Positions 32,021 through 48,551 are shown, counted from the stretch's first letter. The stretch is DNA of 64,000 nt from Anaerolineae bacterium (GCA_030950085.1 JAUZRW010000011.1:1-64000); one strand, 5' to 3'. Numbers and translations are program-made. The notes: generated by a model from the letters alone, not told the origin.

Positions 32021-33127
32021 TTAGCTATCATGTGGGGCAGGTTGCTGCTGAGTGATACAGTGAATATTGCCACCGCCGAGCAAAATTTCTCGCGCATAAA
32101 ATCCAATAACTTCACGGTCAAGGAATAAATCGCGCAATGTAGCGAGTGCCGCCTCGTCATGGGGGTCATTGAATGTCGGCACAATGACTGCACCGTTAGC
32201 AATATAGAAGTTGATATATGACCCTGCGAGACGGTCTTCCGCACAGCGATAACGGGCTGCGGCGACTTTATCAATGCCAATCGCCTCTTCTTCAGTCATA
32301 TACAGGGGCCCGGGTTGATGAATCTTATGAATCTCCAGAGGGCGACCTTTAGCATCGCTGGTATTTGATAGGACATCATAGGCCGCTTGCGAAATCGCAT
32401 ACTGTGGGTCATTTTCATCATCTGTCCATGTGAGGGCAACCACACTCGGACGCACGAAACAAGCGAGGTTGTCGATATGCCCATCAGTCTCATCGCCATA
32501 AACACCGTCTTCAAGCCAAATAACTTTTTCCACATTGAGGTAATGCTGCAAACGGACTTCCAACTGTGATTGTGACCAATTCGGATTGCGATTACTATTC
32601 ATCACGGTTGGGCGAACAACCATTAACGTGCCTTCGCCATCGACATGCAATGCGCCGCCCTCTGTACAAATTGTGGCGCGATAACGAGCGAGGCGTTCAA
32701 CTTCTAGCACTTTATGGGCGACCAAATCATCTTTATCCCACGGAAAATAAGTCCCTTTTTCTAAGCCGCCCCACGCATTGAAAATCCAATCGACACCACG
32801 GACTTCTCCATGCTGATTAAGCACAAAAGTCGGACCACAATCGCGTATCCACGCATCGTTAGCCGCCATCTCTAACACCCGAATATTGTCACCCAACATC
32901 GCACAGGCATTTTCATATTGTTCTGTTGGGACACAAACTGTCACAGGTTCAAAATGTGCAATCGTTTTTGCCAATTCCGCAAAGGTTCGCTGGGCAGGTT
33001 TTGCCCCATTACGCCATGTATCAGTGCGGACGGGCCACAAAAGCCATGTTTGAGTATGTGCCTCCCATTCGGCAGGCATCCAAAAACCGTCAGAGCGCGG
33101 TAACGAATCTAAAGCGTTGGACATCAT
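32021..33127 (-). CDS. aguA: Agmatine deiminase
   Basis: The enzyme hydrolyses agmatine to N-carbamoylputrescine and ammonia in putrescine synthesis from arginine. The 368-residue protein shows the family blocks MPAEWEAHTQTWLLWPVR, NDAWIRDCGPTFV, GALHVDGEGT, GDETDGHIDNLACFV (the catalytic His and acidic residues) and the nucleophile Cys in GGGNIHCITQQQP about 11 residues from the end. The start is the first of two adjacent ATGs after GAAAGGGG; an upstream GTG/TTG is unlikely. It lies 22 bases downstream of the giant kinase-hydrolase gene on the same strand and may share its transcript. Confidence 0.93.
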   Translation of the reverse strand: MMSNALDSLPRSDGFWMPAEWEAHTQTWLLWPVRTDTWRNGAKPAQRTFAELAKTIAHFEPVTVCVPTEQYENACAMLGDNIRVLEMAANDAWIRDCGPTFVLNQHGEVRGVDWIFNAWGGLEKGTYFPWDKDDLVAHKVLEVERLARYRATICTEGGALHVDGEGTLMVVRPTVMNSNRNPNWSQSQLEVRLQHYLNVEKVIWLEDGVYGDETDGHIDNLACFVRPSVVALTWTDDENDPQYAISQAAYDVLSNTSDAKGRPLEIHKIHQPGPLYMTEEEAIGIDKVAAARYRCAEDRLAGSYINFYIANGAVIVPTFNDPHDEAALATLRDLFLDREVIGFYAREILLGGGNIHCITQQQPAPHDS

Positions 33128-33149
33128 GCCCCTTTCCACGTGTTCATGT

Positions 33150-36100
33150 TTATTGACTCGATGCCAAAGTATTGAACAATGGGCGTGTCGAATCAATGAC
33201 AATCATGCTATAGGCAATGACTTCACTATTCTGCGGTACTGTAAATTCATTGGCAAAATTCAGATTCCACAAGAACATCGGACCCACATAATCAAGAGCC
33301 TGCCCCAGTTGAAATGCCCGAATGGTATACGCCTCTTGGTCTGATAATGTATTATAAGACATCCATTCTTCGGGAGGTATGCCGCCGAAGCCTTCCCATG
33401 ATGCCCAGCCAAATTCAGTCGCCCACAATTTAACAGCATGATTATTGGCAGTCGTGATACTATTGTAGTCTTCTAGTGTATTGACGAAGAAAAATTGTAC
33501 AGCATCATCCCAACCTCGGTCTGGTAATGTATCACAGCAGCGCACATCAGGGGCATTCCCCCAACCATAAGGATGAATCCCTATTGCAATATCGGCGTAG
33601 TTTGCCAGACCCCCATCATACATCTGATTGAGAAAGGCACGGTCATTCACGCTGAAACTACCTGTATCTGTTGGGGCGAGTCCGGCTGTGACAATCGTAA
33701 TATCGGATGAAAACGCCCGAATTGCATCATATGCCGGAGCAAATAACTGCATGTACCCTTCGCCGGAGAACGATAAACTGCCATCCCATTCACGGATGAG
33801 ATTCGGTTCATTCCAGACTTCAATCGCATCAATGGACGACCCCATTTCACGCAAGAGTAAGCTCAGGAAGACCGCTAAATCGTCGGGGTTATCTGGTGGA
33901 CCATCATTGCTGGTAGTTGAACGCGCCCAATCTGGTGCTTTTGCGACACTCACTAAAATATTGAAGCCGCTACTATCCGCATTTTGGATAAATTGTTGTA
34001 TTTGGCGGAAGTCATTACTGATATCGGCTGAACCGGAGGGTTGTAAAGCTGCCCAGTTGATTTGTACCTTCATCCATGAAATGCCCAGCTGCGCTGTCCG
34101 TGGTAGGGCAACATCATTGGGGACAACTTGCACACCCATCGCGGAGCGGTCTAATGCGAATGCACTAGCCTCTGGCAAACTTGCAATTACAGCATCCATC
34201 GCTGCTTGCTCTTCTTCGGAGGCACTTGTAGGACCAGCGCCACCACTGCCACCGCTACCGCCACCACCGCTACCACCACTACCACTGCCATCTGCGAGTT
34301 CGACATAATAATCTTCACCCTCGCCCGATGCAGTCCAGCCGGTTGTGCCTTGATAATCAACTTCCCACCATAAGATAAACTGATTGGGGTCACAAACGGG
34401 GCCCCCGACAACAGTAAAACCAACACCGGGCGGCATCAAACTAATGATAGCACCCTCTTCTACCCCTGGATTATCGCGTAGCCGATTGTTGACTCCGCCT
34501 TCTGTAATGCGCCCAAAATTACCCACAGCAAGATTAGCCGGCGGCGACCCCGGACAACCATCGCCGGATGCCGTTGGGAAAGGTGTCGGTGTCAGTGTCG
34601 CTTGTAAGAAGGGGTCAGTGTCTTCAGCATCGAAAATACCGTCACCATCAGTATCGGCGCTTAATGGATTTGTACCATTGGCGACTTCTGTACCATCATT
34701 AATCGTATCGCCGTCCGAATCACGGCTGATAGGCGTTGTTTGCCAAACGAGTGCTTCCTCACCATCGGTCAAGCCATCACCATCGGTATCGACCAGCAAG
34801 GGGTCTGTTTGCAGGGTTGCCTCGCGCATGTTACTGAGGCGATCGCCATCTGTATCAGCACTCGCTGTTTCTGTCACATCGAGAACGACCTGTGTTTGCG
34901 TTGCGTTCACATCGGCTGTCCGTTGTATCGTAATCGAGCGATATGTCCAGAAGCCACCGCCAGCAAGCAAGCCACAGAGCAGCAAGACCAGCAAACCGAG
35001 GCAACCTAAAAACCAGAAGGGAAAACGCGATGTGACCACTAATTCCCCAGTTGTCGATTGCGGCGGCACAGTTTCGTGCTGCGAGTGAATTTGTAATTCA
35101 AAGGGGTAGGTTGCGCCACTTCCCGTAAAAGGTCTGTGTTTAGCCTTCACACGCATCGGAATATATTCAACTCGACCCGGTGCCATCGTAAATTGCTTGC
35201 CCGGTAAGACAAAATCAATAGCGCCTTCACGGTCACGGGGGTCTAGTGTATAGGTATCATAGGTATTGCCTGTATTAGAAATTTTCAGTTCCGCTCGTCC
35301 ACGTCCGGTAATCCGTTGCGGTTGGAAATCAATCACAAAATTACGGAAAGATTGGACATCGACAGCACATTGCTGCATGACCGAATCAAGCGTTTGAGCG
35401 CGAGCGTGAACGAGGATACCAAAAGCATGTTCGCCTTCGGTACTGCTGCTGGCAAGCGGTGGGCTGATAGTAATAGATGTTGTACCGCGATTATTGGGTA
35501 ACAGGTAAAGCGGTGTTGGTGGGACTTGAACCCACTCTTTTGGCAATCCATCGACTTCAAGTGTAAAGTGGTCAACCACATCACTTTGATTGATAACTTC
35601 AACTGAAATCGTCGCCATAGAACCCGGTACAACGGCGACTCGCGGATTATCGACAACCAGACCGATTCTATCATGTGCTGGTGGGGGTAAATCTAGGCGA
35701 GGGGCAGGGCGTTCCACAAACCCTTCGCGTTCAACATCACGCACGGCGACGAACTTACGCGCTGGTTCAAGCCCATCACGCTCTTCTTCGGCATCGGCAT
35801 CAATCACAACCGCCCCTTCATCAAGCGAGCGTTCATCTGCTCTTTCGATGCGAAGCCAATATTCACCAATCCGAATGGTATCGGCACTGGTGACACGACG
35901 GGCAGTTTCAATTTCTAACAGGTCGTCGTTCAGATACGTTTTATTGGTTGAGCCAACATCAATCAGGCGATAAGCATCATCGACACCACGCTCAATACGG
36001 GCATGTTGGCGCGAAACGGTATTGCTTTCCAGATTGACTTTTTGGTCAAAACCGCGTCCGATAGTCACCACATTACGGTCTATCGGAATCGCAAGAGTCG

Positions 36101-39100
36101 GGAATAGTTCACTATACACAATGAGTCTATCAAAGCCCGCTTGTTCTTCTGTTATCGGCTGCGGCGTATAGTACGGCATTTCCGGCGCTAATAAGCGCGG
36201 CATAATCGCTGTTTCAAGTGGGTCATCAACATCTGTGCGATAACCACTCTGCGACTCATCACCAGATAAGGCAAGAAATACCTCTTGTAAATCTTGTGAT
36301 AAATCGTTGGCATTCTGGTAGCGGTCTTGCGCGTCTTTTGCCAATGCCTTAGTGATGATACGTTCCAGATTATAAGGTGTTTCAGGACGTAATTTCGACG
36401 GCGGCTCAAGCGCCATCCGCGTGTGCATTCGGGTCGCCTCTGCCAATGAACGCGGTTGATAAGGCGGCTTACCTGTCAACGTTTCATACATGACGATGCC
36501 AAGTTCATAAACATCGCTGCGTTCATCTTGCTTTTTACCCAAAGTTCGCTCTGGTGTGATATACGTGTAGTCGCCAGAGACCACACTCGGCACATAAACA
36601 TCACTTTGTTGCACCATTTCCGCCAATGCAAAATCGGTGAGAACAGGGGTATAGACCGTGTTACCAGCATTATCAATATCTTCGCTCAAGACAATGTTGC
36701 TAGGGCTAAGGTCACGATAAAACAAACCCTGTTGATGAACGTAGTACATCCCATCAGAAATCTGGCGTGCAAATTCCGCCATCTGTGCCAAATCAACATT
36801 TCGACCTGTACCGTACACATCATCAAGGTAGGTTCGTAATGTTGGTCCCTCAACCAAATCCATCACAATGTAGAGATAATCGCCGGATTGTTCGTAATTG
36901 ATGATACTTACGACATTGGGATGATTGAGATTTTGGGCAATCGGCGCTTCAACAAAAAAAGCACGCAGAAAAAATTCATCTTGGACAAGATAAGGATGGA
37001 TAATTTTCAGAGCGACAATCTCATCGTTATTGCGGCTACGGGCTTGATAAACAGAGGAGATACTATTTTTGCCGAAAAATTCCGTTAATTTGTAACTGCC
37101 GACTGTCTGACCGACGAGTTTCGCATCATAGGTGCTAATCGAGGCGAGAGGTTGCGGCATCTCAAAGTCGCCTTCGCCGCGTTCTTCACCCAGATAGGTA
37201 CTCATGGCATCCAAACGAGCGCGAACCGCTTGTTCTTCGGAATATTCGAGTGTGAGCCAATAATCGCCGATACGAACAATTTCGTCGCCATCCCACTCCA
37301 TTTGTGTATCGCGTGGGATAATAGCATCGCCAAGCCATGTCCCGTTGGTAGAGCCGACATCCGTGATACTGTATTGTCCATCATCATCGCGCAGGATAAC
37401 CGCATGATGTTGTGAGACAGTATTCGATGAAAGGTGGATAGGATGAATAGCCGCACGCCCGATAGATATTTCGTGGCGCATTAATGGGAATACGCGAGCC
37501 GCTTCACCTTCTTGATAGACCACGACACGGTCAGCTTGTTTCTCTTCTTCTGATAATTCGGGTGGGTCGAAATAAGGGATTTCAGATTGCAATTCATATT
37601 GCATAATCTGAGTGCGATTCAACTCTTCAACAGTCGGTACTGTTGCTGTAGATTGCCGCCGCCGCAACTTGGGTTCTGGTAAGGCGGGTTCAGCTTCGGG
37701 GGGCGTTTCCGGCTCGTCTCGCAGTTCCATCATCGCTTGTTGCGGTTCTGGTTCAGGCTCAACAGGCTCATCTTCAACAACAGGTGAATCAGCGCCGCGG
37801 TCAGTTGCCATATCTGCAACATCAACAATCGGAGCCGCTATCACATCACTAGAGCGGCTGCTATCGTCATCATCATCTAATATCGTCGAGTAGACAGCCG
37901 AATCTTTGAGTTCCAGAACGAGCCAATAATGCCCAATTTGCAAAACTTGTTCCGGCTCTAAGATGACTAATTTGTGGCTATCGAGTCGCTGCCCATCAAC
38001 CCATGTCCCATTACTGGATTCAAGGTCAACAAGGCGATACAGCTTATCGACACCGCGCTCTAGCCGCGCATGACGACGCGACACACTGGGGTGATTCAGT
38101 TGGATGCTCTGGTCAGTATCGCGCCCGATAGTCATCACCGCCCGTCGAATGGGGACAATACTTGAGCCACCCGCTTCACTAAAAAGCAGCAAACGGTCAT
38201 AACGCGCTTGTTGGGCTGTCAGGGGTGGGACAGTAAAAATAGGTAATTCGCCGTCTGGCACAAAGTCCATAGCGGCAGTCTTATCAGGGTCAGATGAGAC
38301 AACTGCGGATGCCTGCTGTGCGCTCGTTGTTTGTAAACTTGCCAATGCTGTTGAGAGTTCACGTCCGCTTTGGTAACGCTCAGAAGGGTCTTTCTCTAAG
38401 CACTTGAAAATAATACGCTCTAATGTTGCTGGGAAACCGGGACGCACCGTTGCTGGGGCAGGCGGTTGTTCTTCATTGTGCATCCGATTCGCTTCAGCAA
38501 TACTTTTGGGTTGGAATGGCAAACGCCCAACGGCTAATTCATAAAGCATGATGCCAATTGAGTAAATATCGGTTCGTCCATCCACAGCGACAGCACGACA
38601 TTGTTCCGGTGACATATAAGGGTATGTGCCAATCGGTTGTTCGGCTGTTGCTGCTTCTTCGTCGGAAGCAGTAAGTTTCGCCAAACCAAAATCTGTCACA
38701 ATCGGTTGATAATCTAGCCCACCACTCGCTTGATTGCTCGGCTTGAGCAACACATTATCAGGCTTCATATCCCGATGAACCATATTTTGCTGGTGGGCAT
38801 AATGCAAAGCCTCCGCCAGTTGGCGCACAAGTTCCACCACTTCTGGGAAACCCATCAGACGCGCACTTTCATGGAGACTCTTGATATGATGACGCAGACT
38901 CCCACCGCGAATCAAATCCATAACGAGGAATAATTCATCGTCCACATGGTCAAAAGATAGCACGCGCACGATGTTGGGGTGGTCTAAACGTGCCGCAAGT
39001 CGCGCTTCGACCAAGAAACGATCTTGGAAAGTTTCTTGTGTTGCCAGATGCGGGTGCATGATTTTAATCGCCACCTGCCGCTCTAGGCGCGTGTCGGTTG

Positions 39101-39191
39101 CCTCATAGACGGCTGCCATGCCCCCTTGCCCCAGCAGCTTATCAATGCGGTAGCGGTCAATGGTTTTGCCAATAATTTCACGACCAGCCAT
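33150..39191 (-). CDS. Giant membrane protein: Ser/Thr kinase - 3 FHA - pseudokinase - extracellular calcium-repeat and glycoside hydrolase domains
   Basis: A 2013-residue single-span protein. Kinase 1 (14-290) looks active: GQGGMAAVY, Lys 43, HRD 139-141, DFG at 167. FHA domains are near 340-428, 565-650 and 1030-1118, each with the GR..., S..H and STN core. Kinase 2 (700-985) is degenerate: GKNSISSV in place of the Gly loop, YRD for HRD (825-827), DFA for DFG (853-855). NEW3/Ig-like beta domains follow (1175-1385), then a membrane helix (1392-1414). Outside are four DxDGD thrombospondin-type-3 repeats (1444-1530), an SH3-like domain (1545-1635), a Gly/Ser linker and a GH5/GH39-like barrel (1680-2005) with VWNEPN (Glu 1795) and WATEFGW (Glu 1926) as the acid/base and nucleophile. 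It lies in the type VII-like locus; a cell-wall or glycan sensor coupled to phosphorylation is my inference. Confidence 0.85.
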   Translation of the reverse strand: MAGREIIGKTIDRYRIDKLLGQGGMAAVYEATDTRLERQVAIKIMHPHLATQETFQDRFLVEARLAARLDHPNIVRVLSFDHVDDELFLVMDLIRGGSLRHHIKSLHESARLMGFPEVVELVRQLAEALHYAHQQNMVHRDMKPDNVLLKPSNQASGGLDYQPIVTDFGLAKLTASDEEAATAEQPIGTYPYMSPEQCRAVAVDGRTDIYSIGIMLYELAVGRLPFQPKSIAEANRMHNEEQPPAPATVRPGFPATLERIIFKCLEKDPSERYQSGRELSTALASLQTTSAQQASAVVSSDPDKTAAMDFVPDGELPIFTVPPLTAQQARYDRLLLFSEAGGSSIVPIRRAVMTIGRDTDQSIQLNHPSVSRRHARLERGVDKLYRLVDLESSNGTWVDGQRLDSHKLVILEPEQVLQIGHYWLVLELKDSAVYSTILDDDDDSSRSSDVIAAPIVDVADMATDRGADSPVVEDEPVEPEPEPQQAMMELRDEPETPPEAEPALPEPKLRRRQSTATVPTVEELNRTQIMQYELQSEIPYFDPPELSEEEKQADRVVVYQEGEAARVFPLMRHEISIGRAAIHPIHLSSNTVSQHHAVILRDDDGQYSITDVGSTNGTWLGDAIIPRDTQMEWDGDEIVRIGDYWLTLEYSEEQAVRARLDAMSTYLGEERGEGDFEMPQPLASISTYDAKLVGQTVGSYKLTEFFGKNSISSVYQARSRNNDEIVALKIIHPYLVQDEFFLRAFFVEAPIAQNLNHPNVVSIINYEQSGDYLYIVMDLVEGPTLRTYLDDVYGTGRNVDLAQMAEFARQISDGMYYVHQQGLFYRDLSPSNIVLSEDIDNAGNTVYTPVLTDFALAEMVQQSDVYVPSVVSGDYTYITPERTLGKKQDERSDVYELGIVMYETLTGKPPYQPRSLAEATRMHTRMALEPPSKLRPETPYNLERIITKALAKDAQDRYQNANDLSQDLQEVFLALSGDESQSGYRTDVDDPLETAIMPRLLAPEMPYYTPQPITEEQAGFDRLIVYSELFPTLAIPIDRNVVTIGRGFDQKVNLESNTVSRQHARIERGVDDAYRLIDVGSTNKTYLNDDLLEIETARRVTSADTIRIGEYWLRIERADERSLDEGAVVIDADAEEERDGLEPARKFVAVRDVEREGFVERPAPRLDLPPPAHDRIGLVVDNPRVAVVPGSMATISVEVINQSDVVDHFTLEVDGLPKEWVQVPPTPLYLLPNNRGTTSITISPPLASSSTEGEHAFGILVHARAQTLDSVMQQCAVDVQSFRNFVIDFQPQRITGRGRAELKISNTGNTYDTYTLDPRDREGAIDFVLPGKQFTMAPGRVEYIPMRVKAKHRPFTGSGATYPFELQIHSQHETVPPQSTTGELVVTSRFPFWFLGCLGLLVLLLCGLLAGGGFWTYRSITIQRTADVNATQTQVVLDVTETASADTDGDRLSNMREATLQTDPLLVDTDGDGLTDGEEALVWQTTPISRDSDGDTINDGTEVANGTNPLSADTDGDGIFDAEDTDPFLQATLTPTPFPTASGDGCPGSPPANLAVGNFGRITEGGVNNRLRDNPGVEEGAIISLMPPGVGFTVVGGPVCDPNQFILWWEVDYQGTTGWTASGEGEDYYVELADGSGSGGSGGGGSGGSGGAGPTSASEEEQAAMDAVIASLPEASAFALDRSAMGVQVVPNDVALPRTAQLGISWMKVQINWAALQPSGSADISNDFRQIQQFIQNADSSGFNILVSVAKAPDWARSTTSNDGPPDNPDDLAVFLSLLLREMGSSIDAIEVWNEPNLIREWDGSLSFSGEGYMQLFAPAYDAIRAFSSDITIVTAGLAPTDTGSFSVNDRAFLNQMYDGGLANYADIAIGIHPYGWGNAPDVRCCDTLPDRGWDDAVQFFFVNTLEDYNSITTANNHAVKLWATEFGWASWEGFGGIPPEEWMSYNTLSDQEAYTIRAFQLGQALDYVGPMFLWNLNFANEFTVPQNSEVIAYSMIVIDSTRPLFNTLASSQ

Positions 39192-39403: not shown

Positions 39404-40522
39404 TTAAATCGCCCGTGTCTCCCACGGAAAATAGAGATACTTGACATTTTCGCCCGATGTTTCGCTTGTCACATCACTGAAACGCACAGCCACTTCTGGA
39501 TTATATTGGTCTGTGACCCATACTTCCCCGTTTTCAACCCGTTCCACATACATCAAATGCCCGTAGCGGTCATCTGCCCATTCGTGTTCACGCTCCAAGA
39601 CAATCACTGAGCCGGGTAAGGGGGCATCGCCAGTTGTAATGCCATATTCAAGCCGTTCGGCGGCATTGTCATCCCATAGATAAGCATTATTCGCTATACC
39701 GGGCGGAATCGTCATTCTGTTAACGATGAATTTGACACAATCATAGGTATTTTGCTCGATACCCACTATTGTCTCACTATTTTCCAAAGACCGTATCAAA
39801 TCGATATCCGCGCCGGGCCCGGGTGCAACTCGCGCTAGTTTATCATCTAATTCGCTGATGCGAGTCTCAATCACATTGATATTATTTTCGGTACTACGAA
39901 TATCTTGGTCAATACGGTCAATTTCGCTCTGTAAGGCTTGGACACGCGGCTGCATCTCAATATTATCCACCCCCGCAGTCGCCATACGATTTTCTAGTGC
40001 CGCTAAGTCCGACATTTTTTCTGCTCGTAAGGTCTGTAAAGAGGCTAAGTGTTCTTGTTCGCCGCGCAAATTATCTTGGCTATTGACCAACTCCACATAA
40101 ACCGGACGATTGAACTGCGAAACATACCTATCCGGCTCTATCGGTGCGGACACTGGCTCTGGCGGTTGGAACAATTCGTCATTATTACTCAAAATACGCG
40201 GCAGCAAATCGCCAAATACCATGCCTGATGCAAAATACGGCGTGTCTTTCTCTAAGGCAAGTTCTGACTGTGTGGCATCTTCGATATCGTTTGCCGCATT
40301 ATCTAGCTTTTGCGAAAAATCAATCAGCATATCAAGCCAGTTTGTGGCATCGAAGTTCGGCGTATAGCCTATTTCGGAGATGATGGCGGTTTGGATATCA
40401 ACTGGCAACGTAACGTATAACGCTCGCACAGATGAGGCGCTGATTTGCAAAGTGCGTGTTGATTGTCGCATTTTATCTGCCGACTCACGCATAGATTGGA
40501 GGTGGACATAAATTTCGGTCAT
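39404..40522 (-). CDS. CHAP-domain hydrolase with Esx-like N-terminus and coiled coil
   Basis: The 372-residue protein has three parts. Residues 1-90 are helical and align by eye with the small Esx-like protein at 46387 (IYVHLQSMRESADKMRQSTR; FSQKLDNAANDIEDA against FQQRLSDAANEIELA). A long coiled coil spans about 140-230. The C-terminal CHAP domain has YDCVKFIVNRM (Cys 262), PGSVIVLEREHEWADD and YGHLMYVERV (His 322), the amidase/endopeptidase dyad. There is no Sec signal peptide. This layout, an Esx/LXG-like export head plus a toxin or wall-lytic enzyme, is what type VII substrates look like. It may be a secreted wall hydrolase or a dedicated machinery component. The ATG is chosen over a TTG 15 bases upstream. 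Confidence 0.8.
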   Translation of the reverse strand: MTEIYVHLQSMRESADKMRQSTRTLQISASSVRALYVTLPVDIQTAIISEIGYTPNFDATNWLDMLIDFSQKLDNAANDIEDATQSELALEKDTPYFASGMVFGDLLPRILSNNDELFQPPEPVSAPIEPDRYVSQFNRPVYVELVNSQDNLRGEQEHLASLQTLRAEKMSDLAALENRMATAGVDNIEMQPRVQALQSEIDRIDQDIRSTENNINVIETRISELDDKLARVAPGPGADIDLIRSLENSETIVGIEQNTYDCVKFIVNRMTIPPGIANNAYLWDDNAAERLEYGITTGDAPLPGSVIVLEREHEWADDRYGHLMYVERVENGEVWVTDQYNPEVAVRFSDVTSETSGENVKYLYFPWETRAI

Positions 40523-40601
40523 GGTAAACGTTGTCAATCTACATTAAGGTCTATGTGGAATGTGCCCCCAAATAAGGTCTCTAAAAATACTGCTGATTCC
40601 T

Positions 40602-40727: not shown

Positions 40728-41627
40728 TCAGGGTGAATTTAAGGATGGTAAGGCAATTGTCACTGGATTTTCGCGCCCTAGCAAATCATTCGGTGTCACG
40801 CTGAGTCCTATTGGCTCACTCACGACAGGCACTTCAAAGACTACCCAACCGACTGTACGCCGTCCTAATGCAATCGGAGTCATGGTTTCTTCACTTTGCA
40901 CGATTGCGCCATCACGGGGCGGCACACTAAATTCATTATCCAATATCAATGAGAGTATCGCTTCCGGCGGTTCGCTGCAAATCCCTTGCCGACATTCAAA
41001 ATGCAATTGCAAGACATAGAATCGCGCCCCTTCGACAGGTTCTAGGCGCTCGCGTGTCAGGTTATCTATGACACGCAAAGACTCATCTTCTAATGCCGCG
41101 ACCATCAATAAGCCGCCTTCATAGCGTGCCATATGGTCATTGAGATTCAAGCGTTGCGTATTATCCGGCAATGCTGTCGGGGGTGCCGTCGCTTGGATAG
41201 CAACCCGTGTCGGTATTGTTGCCAATTCTTCATTGCGCCCTGTCCACCGTAGCAGAAATGTAATCGTCACAATCGTTAGCACTACACCGATTGTCCCCCC
41301 CATGACTCGTCGCCATGTTAAACCGGGAACCGCCCGTGCTTGGTGTTGAACATCGGCAATCGTATCAGCGTAGGTATCTTCTTTCCATAGATAGTCATGT
41401 GCCATTTGATGATAGGGATCATAGGGAGCAGTTTTCTTGAGCAATTTTTCGAGATGCCGAATCAGGGCGTTATGGTCAGTTTGGGCATGCGCTTCTAACC
41501 ACATCACCAACGAGTCATGCACATTGCTTGTATCGGGACTATGACGATAGGCTTCTAGCAAGCGCAACACTTCGAGGCGGTCATCTTCGGCAAGGGCAAT
41601 ATTGGCGCGAATCAGGCGGATATCCAT
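40728..41627 (-). CDS. Bitopic membrane protein of the type VII-like locus
   Basis: The 299-residue protein has a helical, TPR-like cytoplasmic N-terminus (1-95, NIALAEDDRLEVLRLLEAYR), one membrane helix (107-127, VMGGTIGVVLTIVTITFLLRW) and an extracytoplasmic beta-rich domain (about 180-295) with a Cys pair (FECRQGICSEPP) that may form a disulfide. GAGGGG precedes the ATG. The topology (cytoplasmic domain, single span, external domain) is that of accessory type VII subunits such as EccB or EssB, but I see no sequence similarity to either. It sits between the EccC-like and CHAP genes on the same strand. Confidence 0.65.
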   Translation of the reverse strand: MDIRLIRANIALAEDDRLEVLRLLEAYRHSPDTSNVHDSLVMWLEAHAQTDHNALIRHLEKLLKKTAPYDPYHQMAHDYLWKEDTYADTIADVQHQARAVPGLTWRRVMGGTIGVVLTIVTITFLLRWTGRNEELATIPTRVAIQATAPPTALPDNTQRLNLNDHMARYEGGLLMVAALEDESLRVIDNLTRERLEPVEGARFYVLQLHFECRQGICSEPPEAILSLILDNEFSVPPRDGAIVQSEETMTPIALGRRTVGWVVFEVPVVSEPIGLSVTPNDLLGRENPVTIALPSLNSP

Positions 41628-41852: not shown

Positions 41853-44800
41853 TTAATCATCATCATCGCCCCCCAACAAATCTTGTAGCAAACCCGCCAC
41901 ATCAATATCGAGGTTGCCATCAACCGTTTCATCCCATATTGGCTCAGATTGGGCAGAGTCTTGTGATGATTGCGTGCTAGAGATGTTGCTCTGCCAAGTG
42001 GCGCGTCCATCATTACGATAAAACAGATTCATGCGCTCAATCTCATCGGCAAGTTCGGCAACATGGGCAATTTGAACCACACTTACTTGATTGCGTTGTG
42101 GCACATAGGCACGACCTTCGGGCAAGATGTCATCGGGTATCCCAGAAACATGCCAGTAAAGGCGTTGCAAACTTTCGCGGCTACCCAAGGCGAATCCAGT
42201 ACGGCGCAACATCAAATGGCGCATGAGAGGGTCTGTTGTCCGTTCCAGATAACCGGCTGCCCAAATATGAAACGGCAAGTCACTGAATACACGGGTACAG
42301 TCGCGCAGGATACGCAATGCCTCTGGTTCGGCACTCAACGCTTCACTGACCATATCATAATCGTCAATCATGACAACCGTTGTCGGGATAGGGGCGTTCG
42401 GGAGTAATTTTTTCCCGTGCTGAAGCTGCTGTAAATCTAGCGCAAGGTGCTTGACTTGCTGCAAAAATTCTGTGGGATGAGTACAGAAAGCGACAACATG
42501 CTTGAGGTCACGCAGAGCATTCAGGTGACGGTCATTAAAATCAACCACTAAGATTCGCAATTGTTGAGGCGAAAATTGCTCGGCGGCGGTGAGTGCCGCA
42601 GTCAAGAGCAGATTCGTCTTGCCCGAACCCGGTACCCCTGTGACAATAAAATGGGGTCCCTCATTTTGCCAATCCAAGACAAAGGGCGTAATAGAGGTAT
42701 CATCGCTATAGCCGAGTGTTGTCTTCAAGCCATTTTCGCTATCCGCCGGATACAAGGTATGAAGCGGAATATAGGTCGGCAGATTACGGATTTGTGCTGG
42801 GGCTTGGTCTTGCTTATAGGTTTTGTGATAGGTTTCGCGCATATGGTCAATAAATTCGCCAAGTGATTTTTGTGCTGCCTCATAGCTTGGATGACCCGGT
42901 ATCACACACGGCAAACAGACTTGAGTGATAAGCGGCGGTGTGTGATGCACATAACCTCGTCCAACAGGAAAACTGACTTGCATCGGCGTGTTGGTGCGCC
43001 CGACGAGAATATCATAATCACTGGCATTATTGAGTTGTAAGGCGATGCGCTGTGGAATCAAGGAACGGAATCTGTCCGGTACAGAATCAATGCTGCTGGC
43101 AGTCATCACGACGTAGATACCGACTGCTCGTCCCTCTTGAATCAGGCGTTCAAAATCGTGCATGTGCGTTTCCCAATACGAATCACGGAATTGCTCGTAC
43201 TGGTCAATGAAGACAATTTTAACGGGGCGATTTTCGTCCAAATGCGGATGATTCGCACGCCAATCGAGTTCTTTCAGTAAGCTACCAAATAAGCGCCGTA
43301 CCCGTTCAATTTCTGTGCCATAGATGACTTTTTCAGCATGGGGCAATTGGCTCACAGCATCTAAGCCTGTTCCGGTGAAACTCACAAAGTACATATGGAG
43401 ATTTTGCGGTGGATGCAAGACAGCTTCACTGAGGGCGAGGGTTTGCAAGAGTGTCGTTTTGCCACTGCCGGGTCCCCCCATCACCAGTAAATGACCATCT
43501 TTTGCCGCTAAATTTTCGCGCTGGCTGGTATTGAGGTGAATCCACAACGGGTCTTGACTACGATTGTAAATATCATCGACTAGACCAAGCGGTGCGCTGC
43601 CGACTTCAACGGGTGTATTAGCAGGGACATCCCATTCTTGACCATCAAAACCGCGAATTTCTGCAATCGAAAAAGGCAATGCCAGTGTAATGCGTTCTTC
43701 TAGCGGCGGCAATAATAGCGGCGGCATCCGCATCAGACCTTCATTACCGGCATAATCATGAAGCAAGTCTGACATAGCGCGTGCGATAGTATACGGTTCG
43801 CTGGATTGTGGCATGGTCGGGTAAGCCGCCCGAATATCTGGTAGCAAATTAACCCGTTCGCCACGCTCGGTAATCAACTCTAGGCGCATTGCCTCATCCA
43901 TACCATCTTCGCCATGCAGCCGTAGATTATAATCGTCTCCAGCATAAGCAGTCTGGAATTGTTTGAACAAACTATGTTCACCCACTTGCAAAAAACCGCG
44001 TCCGGGCTGACCTGTCGGTAGATAAGCAGCATCGGGGCGACGCAACATCGCCCGACTCGCTTCGACACTTTGTACCCTTAGGCAGATACGAAATTGCAAA
44101 TTGGCATTCATCTCATCGGTGATGATATCCATCGGACTCTGTGTCCCAAGAATCAGATGTAAGCCTAAACTGCGCCCGACTTGCACTGTTCGCACCAATT
44201 CTTTCATGAAATCTGGCATTTCACGGGCGAGTTGGGCAAATTCATCCACGATGATAATCAGATGGGGCAGTGGCATATATTTTTTGTTATTGTGGAAATT
44301 GCGCGAGAAAAATTGATGATACTGATGAATATCGCGCATATTCTTCTCTTTGAGAAATTCTTGGCGATACTCGGTTTCAGCTTTGAGCGCCTCTAAAGCG
44401 CGTTGCACCAGCACGCCATCAAGGTTTGTGACCATACCCCCCGTATGCGGCAAATCCCGAAAACCTCTGAATGTACTGCCACCCTTAAAATCAATCAGCA
44501 GCAGATTCAACAAACGTGGGTCATGCTCAATGGCGAGAGCTGCAACGAGTGTTTGTAGCAATTCACTTTTGCCTGAACCTGTTGTGCCAGCCAATACGCC
44601 ATGGGGCCCGTGATGGTCTTCATCTAGCATGAGATAGGTATTCATCGTCAGGCTTTCGCGCCCAATGGGAACAGCGAACGGGAGTGGCGTATTTTCGATA
44701 TCTCGTTGCCATGTTTCGTTGAGAATATCGACCAATTCGCCAACTTCCTTAATGCCGTACATTTCCAGAAAATCGACTTGTTGCGGAATCCGTCCGGCAC

Positions 44801-46049
44801 TGCCTATATCCGGCATGACAATCCCCGATATCGAGCGGGCAAAATGGTCAGCATCGGCATCTGAGAGCAAGTCAATCGTATCGCCAACAATCTCTTCATC
44901 GCTCACTGCGAGGCGGATATAGCGAAATTGCCCTCGGCTACCAATATCGACAATTGCTTGCGTTGCGCCCGGTGCATCTTCGATACGATTAGCGACAAAA
45001 ATCGTCGAAACACCCAAATCTTGCCCCTCTCGCAGCAAGGTTTGATAAACGACTTCACTCGCCATCAATTCCATATCATCAATGATGACGAGCAAGTGCG
45101 GCAGATGGATGACATCTTTATTTTCACGGCGCGAGTCAACCACCTGACTCAGCATCCCGACGAGATTCCGTACACTGTCGGTATCATAAGCAATGAAATC
45201 CGGTTGTTGCCCTTGATGGGTGCTGCTAGTATGCGGCAACCACTTCAACCATTGCCAATCGCTATGATGAGCTAGTGGCGCAACGAGATTAATATGCAAA
45301 TCTTGTGGGGCATGAGTCATCGCCAATTGACACACACTGGCATGAATGGCATTGAGAACCATACTGCGTCGTCCACAATAACTTATTGAGGCATCACGTT
45401 TTAAGGGGGCGACTATCGGTACCGCCTTCAAATAGCGATATTGGTCTACAAGGACAGTCGCTTCTTTGAGCAGTGGATTATCAGTCTCCAAATTAGGGGG
45501 CTTGATGTGTACGGATGAGGGGATTCGTCCACGCCCTAAGCGCACTTGCATAAAATCATGGTGGTCAGGGCGACGTTCCCATAAGCGCGAATCACGGGCA
45601 AGACCGCGTTGTAACAGGGTTGTCGTATCGGGATGATTTTCTTCCAGAATAGCTTTTTGAGCTTCATGAGCGGCTTGTAGACGGGCTTGTTTTTTGTGCA
45701 AACTGCGGATGTACTGCCGTTCATTTTCGATTTCGCGTTGTTCGTGTTGTTTCCGTCGCCAATGTTGCGCGAGGAATGCGCCAGCAATGCTGAAACCGGC
45801 TAAGGCAACCATCGGCACAGCAAATAAAGCACCCACGCCGGATGAATCGCCAAAGGCACGTCCGACATAAAAGAGGGCAATCACACCAATACCCATCACA
45901 GGCAGTATCGTCACCAGTGCATTGGGTTCTGGCGCATCGGATGGTTGCGGCGGAGCAGGTAAATCAACTTCACCATCCGGCAGTGTCGGTAGTTGAATGC
46001 GTGGTGGGCGATTGAAGTTAGCCGATTGCAAGCGATTATCGTTGCGCAT
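41853..46049 (-). CDS. EccC/EssC-like FtsK/SpoIIIE ATPase of a type VII secretion-like system
   Basis: The 1398-residue protein has two N-terminal membrane helices (46-64 and 76-95), a coiled coil (100-135), a D0-like region and three FtsK/SpoIIIE ATPase domains. Walker A motifs are GTTGSGKS (488-495), GGPGSGKT (858-865) and GVPGSGKT (1138-1145). Only the first has a full Walker B with the catalytic Glu (HLIIIVDEFAQ); the second reads VFIDQYEQ and the third VVMIDDYD, the pattern in EccC/EssC where domain 1 hydrolyses ATP and the others bind substrates. Unlike Firmicutes EssC it lacks N-terminal FHA domains; an FHA membrane protein is encoded separately at 47919. It ends in an acidic tail (GLLQDLLGGDDDD). 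It is the motor of the locus and directly follows two Esx-like genes. Confidence 0.92.
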   Translation of the reverse strand: MRNDNRLQSANFNRPPRIQLPTLPDGEVDLPAPPQPSDAPEPNALVTILPVMGIGVIALFYVGRAFGDSSGVGALFAVPMVALAGFSIAGAFLAQHWRRKQHEQREIENERQYIRSLHKKQARLQAAHEAQKAILEENHPDTTTLLQRGLARDSRLWERRPDHHDFMQVRLGRGRIPSSVHIKPPNLETDNPLLKEATVLVDQYRYLKAVPIVAPLKRDASISYCGRRSMVLNAIHASVCQLAMTHAPQDLHINLVAPLAHHSDWQWLKWLPHTSSTHQGQQPDFIAYDTDSVRNLVGMLSQVVDSRRENKDVIHLPHLLVIIDDMELMASEVVYQTLLREGQDLGVSTIFVANRIEDAPGATQAIVDIGSRGQFRYIRLAVSDEEIVGDTIDLLSDADADHFARSISGIVMPDIGSAGRIPQQVDFLEMYGIKEVGELVDILNETWQRDIENTPLPFAVPIGRESLTMNTYLMLDEDHHGPHGVLAGTTGSGKSELLQTLVAALAIEHDPRLLNLLLIDFKGGSTFRGFRDLPHTGGMVTNLDGVLVQRALEALKAETEYRQEFLKEKNMRDIHQYHQFFSRNFHNNKKYMPLPHLIIIVDEFAQLAREMPDFMKELVRTVQVGRSLGLHLILGTQSPMDIITDEMNANLQFRICLRVQSVEASRAMLRRPDAAYLPTGQPGRGFLQVGEHSLFKQFQTAYAGDDYNLRLHGEDGMDEAMRLELITERGERVNLLPDIRAAYPTMPQSSEPYTIARAMSDLLHDYAGNEGLMRMPPLLLPPLEERITLALPFSIAEIRGFDGQEWDVPANTPVEVGSAPLGLVDDIYNRSQDPLWIHLNTSQRENLAAKDGHLLVMGGPGSGKTTLLQTLALSEAVLHPPQNLHMYFVSFTGTGLDAVSQLPHAEKVIYGTEIERVRRLFGSLLKELDWRANHPHLDENRPVKIVFIDQYEQFRDSYWETHMHDFERLIQEGRAVGIYVVMTASSIDSVPDRFRSLIPQRIALQLNNASDYDILVGRTNTPMQVSFPVGRGYVHHTPPLITQVCLPCVIPGHPSYEAAQKSLGEFIDHMRETYHKTYKQDQAPAQIRNLPTYIPLHTLYPADSENGLKTTLGYSDDTSITPFVLDWQNEGPHFIVTGVPGSGKTNLLLTAALTAAEQFSPQQLRILVVDFNDRHLNALRDLKHVVAFCTHPTEFLQQVKHLALDLQQLQHGKKLLPNAPIPTTVVMIDDYDMVSEALSAEPEALRILRDCTRVFSDLPFHIWAAGYLERTTDPLMRHLMLRRTGFALGSRESLQRLYWHVSGIPDDILPEGRAYVPQRNQVSVVQIAHVAELADEIERMNLFYRNDGRATWQSNISSTQSSQDSAQSEPIWDETVDGNLDIDVAGLLQDLLGGDDDD

Positions 46050-46098
46050 CAAAAACCTCTAGGCTAAAACGCATTATCGAATACCGCAGCCATGATGC

Positions 46099-46386: not shown

Positions 46387-46668
46387 TTACTCTGTTGGGC
46401 GCGATGCCAACTCGATTTCATTGGCAGCATCACTCAAGCGTTGCTGAAATTGTACAAGGTTTTTTGCCGCATCTTTCAAACGCGGAGTCAAGCGCATATA
46501 ACGGGCGCGAAATTCCTCAGCAGCGATGCTTGTAAAACGGTCAACGCTCAACGCCCGAATCTCAGCATCTACAGATTCGATACTGTCACTGATGCGTTGG
46601 GCGCTATTTTGTATCGTTTGAGCCGCATCACGCATTTGGCTCGTTTTGGCTCGTAATTCACCATCCAT
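46387..46668 (-). CDS. Second Esx-like helical-hairpin protein without a WXG motif
   Basis: The 93-residue protein has two predicted helices with the same length and spacing as its neighbour (MDGELRAKTSQMRDAAQTIQ; FRARYMRLTPRLKDAAKNLVQFQQ). The turn reads LSVDRFTSIAAEEFRARY, without W-x-G. Such divergent partners occur in ESX heterodimers, so it may pair with the WXG100 protein 18 bases downstream. The ATG follows AAAGGA by seven bases; a TTG six bases upstream is less likely. It resembles the N-terminus of the CHAP protein. Confidence 0.8.
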   Translation of the reverse strand: MDGELRAKTSQMRDAAQTIQNSAQRISDSIESVDAEIRALSVDRFTSIAAEEFRARYMRLTPRLKDAAKNLVQFQQRLSDAANEIELASRPTE

Positions 46669-46687
46669 CAGCAATTCCTTTCGTTAA

Positions 46688-47818
46688 TCATCTATTTGTA
46701 AACTCGGCAATTGCCAAGAGGACAATCGACAAGGTGACAGCAATCGCCATCGCTACCCCAAATGCTAGTACCAACATTGATGCCGGATTGCTAACAACCT
46801 GACCAGTCGGACTATAAGCGGCTGTTGTGATGCCAGTCGGGGCGGCTTGCGCTTCTAATGTGCCAACTGCCCCATCTTCTGCTGAGTCAGGCATCGGAGC
46901 GACTTCGACATCTGCGGCGGTTGCAACAGTATTTTGCGAGATAAAAATCGCATTTTCGATATCTTCTGCAAATTGAGTTAAATCGGTATAGCGGACATCG
47001 CGTGCGCCTAATGCTTTTGTGAAAATGGCATCGAGTTGCTCTAAATCCGCCAGTTTCAAATCATCAGGCATTTGTGGGTCTTCAATGGTTGTCGGCTTCA
47101 CCCATTCGCCATCATCAAGGCGTTTTTTTGCCGCAAAACGCGCATACATCCCTTTTTTGATAATCGGGTCATCATAATCAAAAATCGGATGGCGACCAAA
47201 TAAGATTTCATAAGCGACAACAGCGAAACTCCACGCATCGCCAATCGCATCAGGGGCTTCAAAATCCGGCGGCATATAAATACTCGTCCCGATGTTGAAG
47301 TTCGTCATATCGCGGTTTTCGGCTGCCAGCGAAATACTAAAATCCATCAGATAGGGTTTATCTACGCCATTGATATTGCCCGGCTTAATATCGCGGTGAA
47401 TGATGTCATTTTTATGCGCGAGTGACAGTGCAGAAGCCACATTCTTAATGATTGTGAGCCGTTTACGAATATTTTGCTTGACCAATTCGCCGCGCAAGAT
47501 GAGTTTGTCCAGTGAGGGGCTATCAATAAATTCCATCACAAAATAAGGGCGTTCAGACTCTAAATCCCACTCGTAAATCGCCGGAATATTAGGATGATTC
47601 AGTGTTTTCAGGGCATTGACTTCGCGCTCTAGGCGTTCACGATGTTTAGTGGCAGAGCGGCTGCTAATCAGATTTTCGCGCATGAATTTAATAGCGACGA
47701 TTTGCCCACCTGCGCCCATCGCTTTCCAAATTTCACCGGATGAACCGACACCCACATGCTCTAACAATTCATAATTATCAATCTTAGCGCCTGATTCTAT
47801 CTTCATCATAATAGACAT
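46688..47818 (-). CDS. Membrane-anchored Ser/Thr protein kinase
   Basis: The 376-residue protein has a cytoplasmic kinase domain (about 15-285) and one C-terminal membrane helix (about 348-370, SMLVLAFGVAMAIAVTLSIVLLA). The kinase has VGVGSSGEIWKA, the Lys of VAIKFMRE, IIHRDIKPGNI and GTSIYMPPDFEAP, but DFG is replaced by DFS (LMDFSISL). The last exported residues are few, so it has no real external sensor. It probably works with the FHA protein upstream, whose domain would read the phosphothreonine. It lies 20 bases upstream of the Esx-like genes. Confidence 0.88.
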   Translation of the reverse strand: MSIMMKIESGAKIDNYELLEHVGVGSSGEIWKAMGAGGQIVAIKFMRENLISSRSATKHRERLEREVNALKTLNHPNIPAIYEWDLESERPYFVMEFIDSPSLDKLILRGELVKQNIRKRLTIIKNVASALSLAHKNDIIHRDIKPGNINGVDKPYLMDFSISLAAENRDMTNFNIGTSIYMPPDFEAPDAIGDAWSFAVVAYEILFGRHPIFDYDDPIIKKGMYARFAAKKRLDDGEWVKPTTIEDPQMPDDLKLADLEQLDAIFTKALGARDVRYTDLTQFAEDIENAIFISQNTVATAADVEVAPMPDSAEDGAVGTLEAQAAPTGITTAAYSPTGQVVSNPASMLVLAFGVAMAIAVTLSIVLLAIAEFTNR

Positions 47819-47830
47819 TATCCGCCATAT

Positions 47831-47919
47831 TTGTTTAACGAAATTACTTTGATGACTCGCATAATCTCACTCTCATTTTGCAATATTGTGTGAGATACGA
47901 TGAAACCCCGAAAGGGGAT
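47831..47919 (-). repeat. 90-bp repeat with CCCCTTTCGGGG hairpin, copy 4
   Basis: On the minus strand it begins at the last base of the FHA gene's stop codon (TAATCCCCTTTCGGGG) and ends with GTTAAACAA. It separates the FHA gene from the kinase gene inside one locus. Confidence 0.8.
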
Positions 47920-48551
47920 TATCGAATAGCTTGTTCACGAGTTTCGGTTGGTAATATCAATCGGAGGCGTACTTTGCTACCGAGTTGTACCACATCTTGG
48001 TTAAAAACCCGTACTGGAAGATTCGGCTCGATTTGTTCAAATTGCCCCTCTTTGAACAAAAAAGTGCCATAGGTGCTTTCGGTATCAATTAAATAATATT
48101 CGCGCAAATCTTCATCCCCCGCAAAGAGGGCATGATGCCGCGAAATACTGCGCTCATCAATTGCCATCAAAATTTGTTGCTCTTCATTGAAAAAGCGTCC
48201 GATTCCAAATTCATAAGCGGGCAGGGCTAAATCTTTTGCCTCTGGCATACCGGCTTCAACCACGAATTTGCCAGAAACCCCGTGGTCAGTGACACCCGTT
48301 ACCCCACCTGTGCCGGGTCCAGACCCCACCTGTGCCAGAATTGTGGGTAATCCACTGGATAATTTATCTTGCGACCAAGCACCGCTACTGCGTGGCATGA
48401 CAGGGTGTGTGGGTTGATTGGCACGGTCTTCAACAGTACCTGTAATCGACAAAAACGTGGCATAGACAACCTGTATGAGGGCAACCAAACCCAAACCCAC
48501 AGGCAAATAAGTTACTAAATTTCGCAGAAAGAGATTCCAATCAAGTGTCAT
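47919..48551 (-). CDS. Membrane-anchored FHA-domain protein
   Basis: The 210-residue protein has an N-terminal membrane helix (about 12-34, LVTYLPVGLGLVALIQVVYATFL), a flexible Pro/Ser/Gly-rich linker and a C-terminal FHA domain (about 110-200) with FGIGRFF, SISRHHALF and DTESTYGTFLF, the phosphothreonine-binding core. It is first in the minus-strand type VII-like locus. In Firmicutes EssC carries such FHA domains itself; here one is supplied on a separate membrane protein, which could dock to the EccC-like ATPase in trans. That role is inferred. Confidence 0.85.
   Translation of the reverse strand: MTLDWNLFLRNLVTYLPVGLGLVALIQVVYATFLSITGTVEDRANQPTHPVMPRSSGAWSQDKLSSGLPTILAQVGSGPGTGGVTGVTDHGVSGKFVVEAGMPEAKDLALPAYEFGIGRFFNEEQQILMAIDERSISRHHALFAGDEDLREYYLIDTESTYGTFLFKEGQFEQIEPNLPVRVFNQDVVQLGSKVRLRLILPTETREQAIR

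Follow-up and report, generated by a model that had tools for sequence, protein, structure and literature searches.

A receptor kinase gene in an Anaerolineae bacterium

We analysed a 64,000-nt stretch of DNA from an Anaerolineae bacterium (GCA_030950085.1 JAUZRW010000011.1:1-64000; hereafter the window), which includes a gene for a receptor kinase of 2013 amino acids. Its open reading frame begins with ATG, runs unbroken for 2013 codons, and has a ribosome-binding site (GGGAG) 5' of the start. Pfam finds two kinase domains (Pkinase), three FHA domains, and TSP3_bac repeats, and a single hydrophobic segment separates the inner from the outer part. A first-pass annotation of the sequence had placed a kinase, three FHA domains, and a second kinase inside the cell, with calcium-type repeats, an SH3-like domain, and a barrel outside, and our analysis supports that order and topology. 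The annotation overlooked a pair of Ig-like domains (the Ig2 module) between FHA3 and the membrane. A fold search with Ig2 returned only generic Ig/ASH-type matches, with low template-modelling scores and no pointer to function. The parts of the gene are listed here (TM, transmembrane helix; pLDDT, predicted local distance difference test); the AlphaFold models were built on shallow alignments, of 6 and 8 sequences.

33150..39191, minus strand: 2013-aa receptor kinase gene, K1-FHA-FHA-K2-FHA-Ig-Ig-TM-TSP3-SH3b-GH39 (Pfam and full-length homologues)
38337..39164, minus strand: K1, Hanks-type Ser/Thr kinase, residues 10-285, every catalytic motif intact (Pfam and motif alignment)
38268..38279, minus strand: T305-A-A-M308, TxxM before FHA1, candidate phosphothreonine site (motif count)
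37932..38132, minus strand: FHA1, residues 354-420 (Pfam)
37602..37613, minus strand: T527-Q-I-M530, TxxM before FHA2 (motif count)
37272..37499, minus strand: FHA2, residues ~565-640 (Pfam/domain models)
36237..37124, minus strand: K2, kinase-fold domain, residues 690-985 (Pfam, motif alignment, structure-database match)
36201..36212, minus strand: T994-A-I-M997, TxxM before FHA3 (motif count)
35856..36086, minus strand: FHA3, residues ~1036-1112 (Pfam/domain models)
35037..35714, minus strand: Ig2 module, two Ig-like beta-sandwiches, residues ~1160-1385, cytoplasmic side (AlphaFold pLDDT 86; FixG_C E = 9e-5; in all receptors)
34962..35018, minus strand: single transmembrane helix, residues 1392-1410 (hydrophobicity)
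34632..34883, minus strand: TSP3 calcium-type repeats, residues ~1437-1520 (Pfam/domain models)
34296..34589, minus strand: SH3b-like domain, residues ~1535-1632 (SH3_3 match)
33162..34169, minus strand: PslG-like GH39 barrel, residues 1675-2010 (profile search, AlphaFold, Foldseek)
33807..33809, minus strand: Glu1795 (WNEPN), aligns with the acid-base Glu165 of PslG (alignment)
33414..33416, minus strand: Glu1926 (TEFGW), aligns with the nucleophile Glu276 of PslG (alignment)

Proteins with the same order of domains are essentially complete at L018, L021, L022, L023, and L040, five loci from other genera of the same family (L-numbers denote loci, G-numbers genomes, and C-numbers contigs). At four more loci (L019, L020, L024, L043), the long form is truncated at a contig end or split into frames. 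Because long homologues with this order occur in nine other Anaerolineae genomes in all (phylum Chloroflexota), we consider the open reading frame to be genuine, and the full-length homologues in other genera rule out the assembly fusion for which a check had been advised. Shorter relatives have one kinase, FHA, Ig2, and a transmembrane helix, followed by other ectodomains (WD40 or PD40 propellers, DUF7452, or HYDIN-type Ig). The core Ig2 module is found across the phylum, in 46 of the 301 sampled genomes. Judging by these sequences, the window protein is the long form of a phylum-wide receptor family. The first-pass annotation knew of no described protein with this combination, but the architecture is not a one-off. 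We also noticed that the gene directly 3' of the receptor at L040 (L040:12553-14712(+)), and also at L019, L020, and L043, encodes a signal peptide, a large vWA-like outer part (without a Pfam match), one transmembrane helix, and a cytoplasmic FHA domain, so its topology is opposite to the receptor's.

K1 has the Gly loop, Lys72, Glu91, HRD, Asn171, DFG, and APE of a Hanks-type (PknB-like) kinase. None of these motifs has a lesion in any of the 8 long proteins in which K1 is present, which agrees with the first-pass view that the first kinase is apparently active. In contrast, K2 has a lesion in the catalytic core or the Gly loop in 10/10 proteins, and in the core in 8/10 (K1 intact versus K2 damaged, Fisher p = 2.3e-5). 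The site of the lesion varies: Asp166 in four proteins, Lys72 in two, and otherwise Glu91, Asn171, or the Gly loop alone. In a tree, K1 and K2 form sister clades that descend from one duplication (support 99/95; each clade 98-100) and lie nearest to the single kinase of L028, and mapping the lesions onto the K1/K2 tree gives about seven independent losses. As a group, K2 is conserved with damaged catalytic motifs, as expected of a pseudokinase. The K2 of the window has lost the Gly loop, the His of HRD, the Lys of HRDxK, and the Gly of DFG, as had been noted in part, but the HRD and DFG motifs are not lost entirely, since both Asp residues remain. Its equivalents of Lys72, Glu91, Asp166, Asn171, and Asp184 are kept (these include the ATP-binding Lys, the C-helix Glu, the HRD-Asp, and the DFG-Asp). 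Because these five core residues stay, weak nucleotide binding is possible, and so is residual activity. The best match of K2 among solved structures is PknB, and K1 matches a PknB/Stk1 model. Two side observations concern other kinases of the family. At L026 and L027, neighbouring receptor genes likewise pair an intact kinase with a degenerate one. And in genus g31, the CIS-linked receptor kinase (L091:8210-10975(-), L092; CIS stands for contractile injection system, see below) lacks Asp166, and genomes of this genus also encode an intact paralogue at a different location (L035, L036).

All three of the FHA domains that were first reported in the cytoplasmic part are found by Pfam. In the long forms, 23 of the 28 linkers that precede an FHA domain contain TxxM (Thr, with Met at +3), whereas shuffling gives an expectation of 4.7 (maximum of 12 in 2000). 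The background rate in comparable pieces elsewhere in the window is 6.6%. Because recognition by FHA domains commonly depends on the residue at +3 of the phosphothreonine, the TxxM sites may be natural docking sites for FHA domains. Single-kinase receptors of the order (L026, L031, L033, L034, L035, L036) have a conserved [DE]SLxTYL before the FHA domain, which is another candidate threonine site.

Outside the cell, the SH3-like domain is of the SH3_3 type (E = 1.8e-4 for the window receptor, down to 4.5e-8 in homologues). Searching Pfam with the barrel of the window alone gave no significant match to a glycoside hydrolase (GH) family, and the barrel of the L018 homologue just reaches the cut-off for Cellulase. 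Combined into a profile, the barrels of six receptors match the GH39 enzyme PslG from Pseudomonas aeruginosa over the whole barrel (E = 1.4e-20). Furthermore, PslG is the best Foldseek match (E = 3e-14) of the AlphaFold model (pLDDT 73; predicted template-modelling score 0.80). The catalytic residues of PslG are Glu165, the acid-base, and Glu276, the nucleophile (PMC7237758, PMC11912335), and both are kept in every complete receptor barrel that we compared. With the related TIM-barrel fold and the two glutamates, the domain is predicted to be a glycosidase of the PslG type, which bears out the GH5/GH39-like assignment of the first-pass annotation; it may sense or cut glycans outside the cell. 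Nearly all of the relatives also encode standalone PslG-like proteins, and the window genome's own (L002) resembles a lipoprotein.

Linkage to a contractile injection system

Relatives have, 5' of the receptor gene, genes for the CIS tube, a VgrG-like spike, gp25, Baseplate_J (Cis11), and Tail_P2_I (Cis12). The operon of nearer relatives also includes eCIS_core, and the gaps between CIS genes are often a few bases. A CIS operon lies directly upstream of the receptor at L018, L020, L023, L027, L028, L029, L040, L059, L061, L062, L066, L081, L082, and L091-L094. (At L097, the gap 3' of the CIS operon is a run of N and is uninformative.) The full length of Cis11 aligns with the Streptomyces coelicolor CIS chain in 9gtp (E = 2.3e-176), and sheath genes are present in 18 of the 19 genomes checked. 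As tube, sheath, gp25, VgrG-like spike, Cis11, and Cis12 are all found, the machine can be assigned by homology to subtype IId. At L059 and L060 (G226 C1, 2.04-2.07 Mb), six Ig2 receptor genes are arranged in tandem behind the CIS operon.

Only the C-terminal half of Cis12, from position 155 onward, matches 9gtp_E (190 aa); the FHA domain at the N-terminus of Cis12 is therefore an addition. The structure 9gtp contains 12 copies of Cis11 and 6 of Cis12. In the Fha protein of Agrobacterium, R30 and S46 bind phosphothreonine (PMC3953482); the corresponding Arg and Ser are invariant in the FHA domains of Cis12 and are present in the FHA domains of the window receptor. Some Cis12 proteins without FHA (L068, L069, L070) carry an N-terminal stretch that resembles half of the receptor's Ig2 module.

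The FHA domain of Cis12 and the receptor kinase tend to occur together. Across 61 relatives, most of which are fragmented metagenome-assembled genomes (MAGs), a full FHA-Cis12 is accompanied by a strong Ig2 receptor in 16 and occurs without one in 1, 3 have only the receptor, and 41 have neither (p = 7.6e-11). Cis12 and an Ig2 protein are both encoded at 33 loci, and a kinase gene accompanies them at 22/23 of those with FHA on Cis12 versus 0/10 of those without it (p = 1.2e-7); the Ig2 protein itself is present in both classes of loci. Several CIS loci also include a gene for a PP2C phosphatase. Contig C179 of the window genome carries the CIS operon with its FHA-Cis12; there, a PP2C gene immediately follows eCIS_core. 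The sheath gene is on C239. The window gene is this genome's sole kinase-Ig2 receptor. On C179, the gene 5' of the tube gene (L058:300-2954(+)) encodes an acidic, disordered-looking protein of 884 amino acids with many IQRTPDFDS-type repeats, which is possibly a phospho-target or related to cargo. We found no report of a kinase or FHA domain tied to a CIS other than the type VI secretion system (T6SS), in a search whose coverage left out subscription papers and preprints.

A proposed role for the receptor

We lean towards the view that, in Anaerolineae, the receptor is a single-pass kinase that regulates a cytoplasmic subtype IId CIS and probably also serves as its dock. On the outside, SH3b and the PslG-like GH39 domain would meet polysaccharide, either in the cell's own matrix or on the surface of another cell, and this engagement would cluster the receptors. 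K1 would then phosphorylate threonines, most likely those of the TxxM sites before each FHA domain of the receptor itself (autophosphorylation), with K2, a duplicate without catalysis, acting as an allosteric partner or scaffold. The phosphothreonines on clustered receptors would recruit the FHA domains of the six Cis12 copies in the baseplate, so that a loaded CIS would be brought to the membrane and would then fire. The PP2C phosphatase would reset the switch. For Chloroflexota as a whole, we propose, with a little less conviction than even, a phosphothreonine-gated membrane dock for cytoplasmic CIS, in which the FHA domain of Cis12 lets the baseplate be recruited by a receptor kinase that has a degenerate twin, and exchangeable ectodomains, such as the PslG-like glycosidase of the window receptor, pick the trigger.

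Several observations weigh against this proposal. In Roseiflexus, which is the closest cultured case, the CIS particles are unanchored (PMC12998442), although docking could be transient. The receptor and the CIS are on separate contigs in the window genome, G005, G040, and G041; because the CIS genes of the window genome are on other contigs, its receptor and CIS would meet in trans. G021 and G026 carry the receptor, yet FHA-Cis12 was not found there. TxxM is mostly absent from the single-kinase receptors and, being confined to the long forms, is ruled out as a motif of the whole family. Our association statistics ignore phylogeny, and the loci were chosen by Ig2 hits. Finally, nearly all relatives have a second family, FHA-Ig2-TM-SH3 (~690 aa), that lies away from CIS genes (L088:9723-11777(+), L089, L090), so Ig2 alone is not specific to CIS and we rejected it as a marker.

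Kinase and FHA control of a contractile machine has a precedent in the T6SS (PMC3953482). As with PpkA, PppA, and Fha, the loci of relatives combine a membrane Ser/Thr kinase, a PP2C, and an FHA protein with a contractile machine, but this is only an analogy: here there is no T6SS, the FHA domain is fused to the baseplate protein Cis12 of a CIS, and the kinase is joined to a pseudokinase twin and an ectodomain of the glycosidase type. In Streptomyces, the membrane protein CisA is encoded after the baseplate genes of the CIS and is needed for firing (PMC12237407). Like CisA, the receptor has a single transmembrane helix, and in relatives (not in the window genome) its gene comes just after subtype IId baseplate genes. 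However, CisA is disordered at its N-terminus and ends in a PBP-like domain, and PMC12237407 mentions no kinase or FHA. Because these two parts of CisA are absent from the receptor, the receptor is not an orthologue of CisA. The Roseiflexus CIS is likewise of subtype IId and from Chloroflexota (PMC12998442), and a CIS cluster has also been reported in an Aggregatilineales MAG, but the main text of PMC12998442 does not mention a kinase or FHA.

The receptor also resembles PknB-type kinases, in the structure match of K2 and the domain-model match of K1. GarA and OdhI have a conserved Thr that is N-terminal to the FHA domain, as does the receptor. Unlike these systems, the receptor has no PASTA repeats, and its kinase and pseudokinase are fused to FHA, Ig2, and a GH ectodomain. 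PslG has the same barrel and both catalytic glutamates, but in the receptor the barrel is the outer head of a kinase.

What brings cytoplasmic injection systems to the membrane and triggers them is an open question (PMC12237407). For a single phylum, our proposal draws a concrete and testable answer from sequence: a kinase with its phosphatase, plus a domain within the baseplate that reads phosphate. Separately, one duplication followed by about seven independent losses of catalysis makes the kinase/pseudokinase pair a natural experiment on the function of bacterial pseudokinases.

Neighbouring genes and alternative explanations

The first-pass annotation had placed the receptor next to a type VII-like machine, and such a locus is indeed adjacent.

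39404..40537, minus strand: CHAP-domain protein (Pfam)
40728..41627, minus strand: 299-aa one-TM protein conserved in the EccC locus (homology, TM prediction)
41853..46052, minus strand: EccC/EssC-type ATPase of a type VII secretion system (T7SS) (EssC model E = 1.7e-225)
46387..46674, minus strand: WXG100 protein (domain match)
46688..47818, minus strand: small membrane Ser/Thr kinase of the T7SS-like locus (Pfam, TM prediction)
47919..48551, minus strand: membrane FHA protein of the T7SS-like locus (Pfam, TM prediction)

With an EccC/EssC ATPase and a WXG100 protein, the locus is T7SS-like, although this EccC scores just below the NCBIfam cut-offs. The CHAP protein is probably a cell-wall hydrolase exported by the T7SS; in L028, the N-terminus of its homologue matches WXG100 weakly. 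We also considered that the receptor might regulate the T7SS-like locus, as the earlier annotation suggested. Besides adjacency in the window, L023 and L028 combine the CIS operon, receptor, and EccC set, L097 has CIS together with EccC, and EccC orthologues scoring above 1000 bits are confined to receptor/CIS-positive relatives (9/20 versus 0/41 others; p = 9.7e-6). Even so, about half of the relatives with a receptor lack this EccC, we saw no T7SS protein with a domain that tracks the receptor kinases as FHA-Cis12 does, and a small kinase and an FHA protein are encoded within the locus itself (46688-48551). We consider this explanation quite unlikely; the better-supported partner is the CIS, which is not visible from the window.

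Alternatively, the receptor could be a general polysaccharide-sensing kinase that binds or trims matrix glycans and acts on ordinary targets, such as matrix synthesis or adhesion, in which case the CIS linkage of relatives would be incidental to the long form. This would fit with the window gene not adjoining CIS genes, with the standalone PslG-like proteins of nearly all relatives, and with the similarity of the barrel to PslG, which is active on exopolysaccharide. However, a long form with this core stands at the end of a CIS operon at five or more other loci (L018, L020, L022, L023, L040), and the presence of the FHA/kinase tracks FHA on Cis12, so we regard this idea as unlikely, if less so than regulation of the T7SS-like locus. 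We give much less credence to the receptor being mainly a tethered glycosidase, whose barrel remodels the cell's own matrix while the cytoplasmic part just regulates or anchors it. Both catalytic glutamates are indeed kept, and PslG, the closest enzyme, cuts matrix polysaccharide, but the same cytoplasmic core bears quite different ectodomains in relatives. Because this core also carries WD40/PD40, DUF7452, or HYDIN-type Ig, the glycosidase appears to be one interchangeable sensor head.

On the other side of the receptor, at 32021-33202 in the window, lies a PAD_porph (agmatine-deiminase-type) gene, 3' of the receptor. Called mechanically, its start is a TTG that overlaps the receptor; translation probably begins at the ATG near 33128, which follows a GGAAAGGGG-like site.

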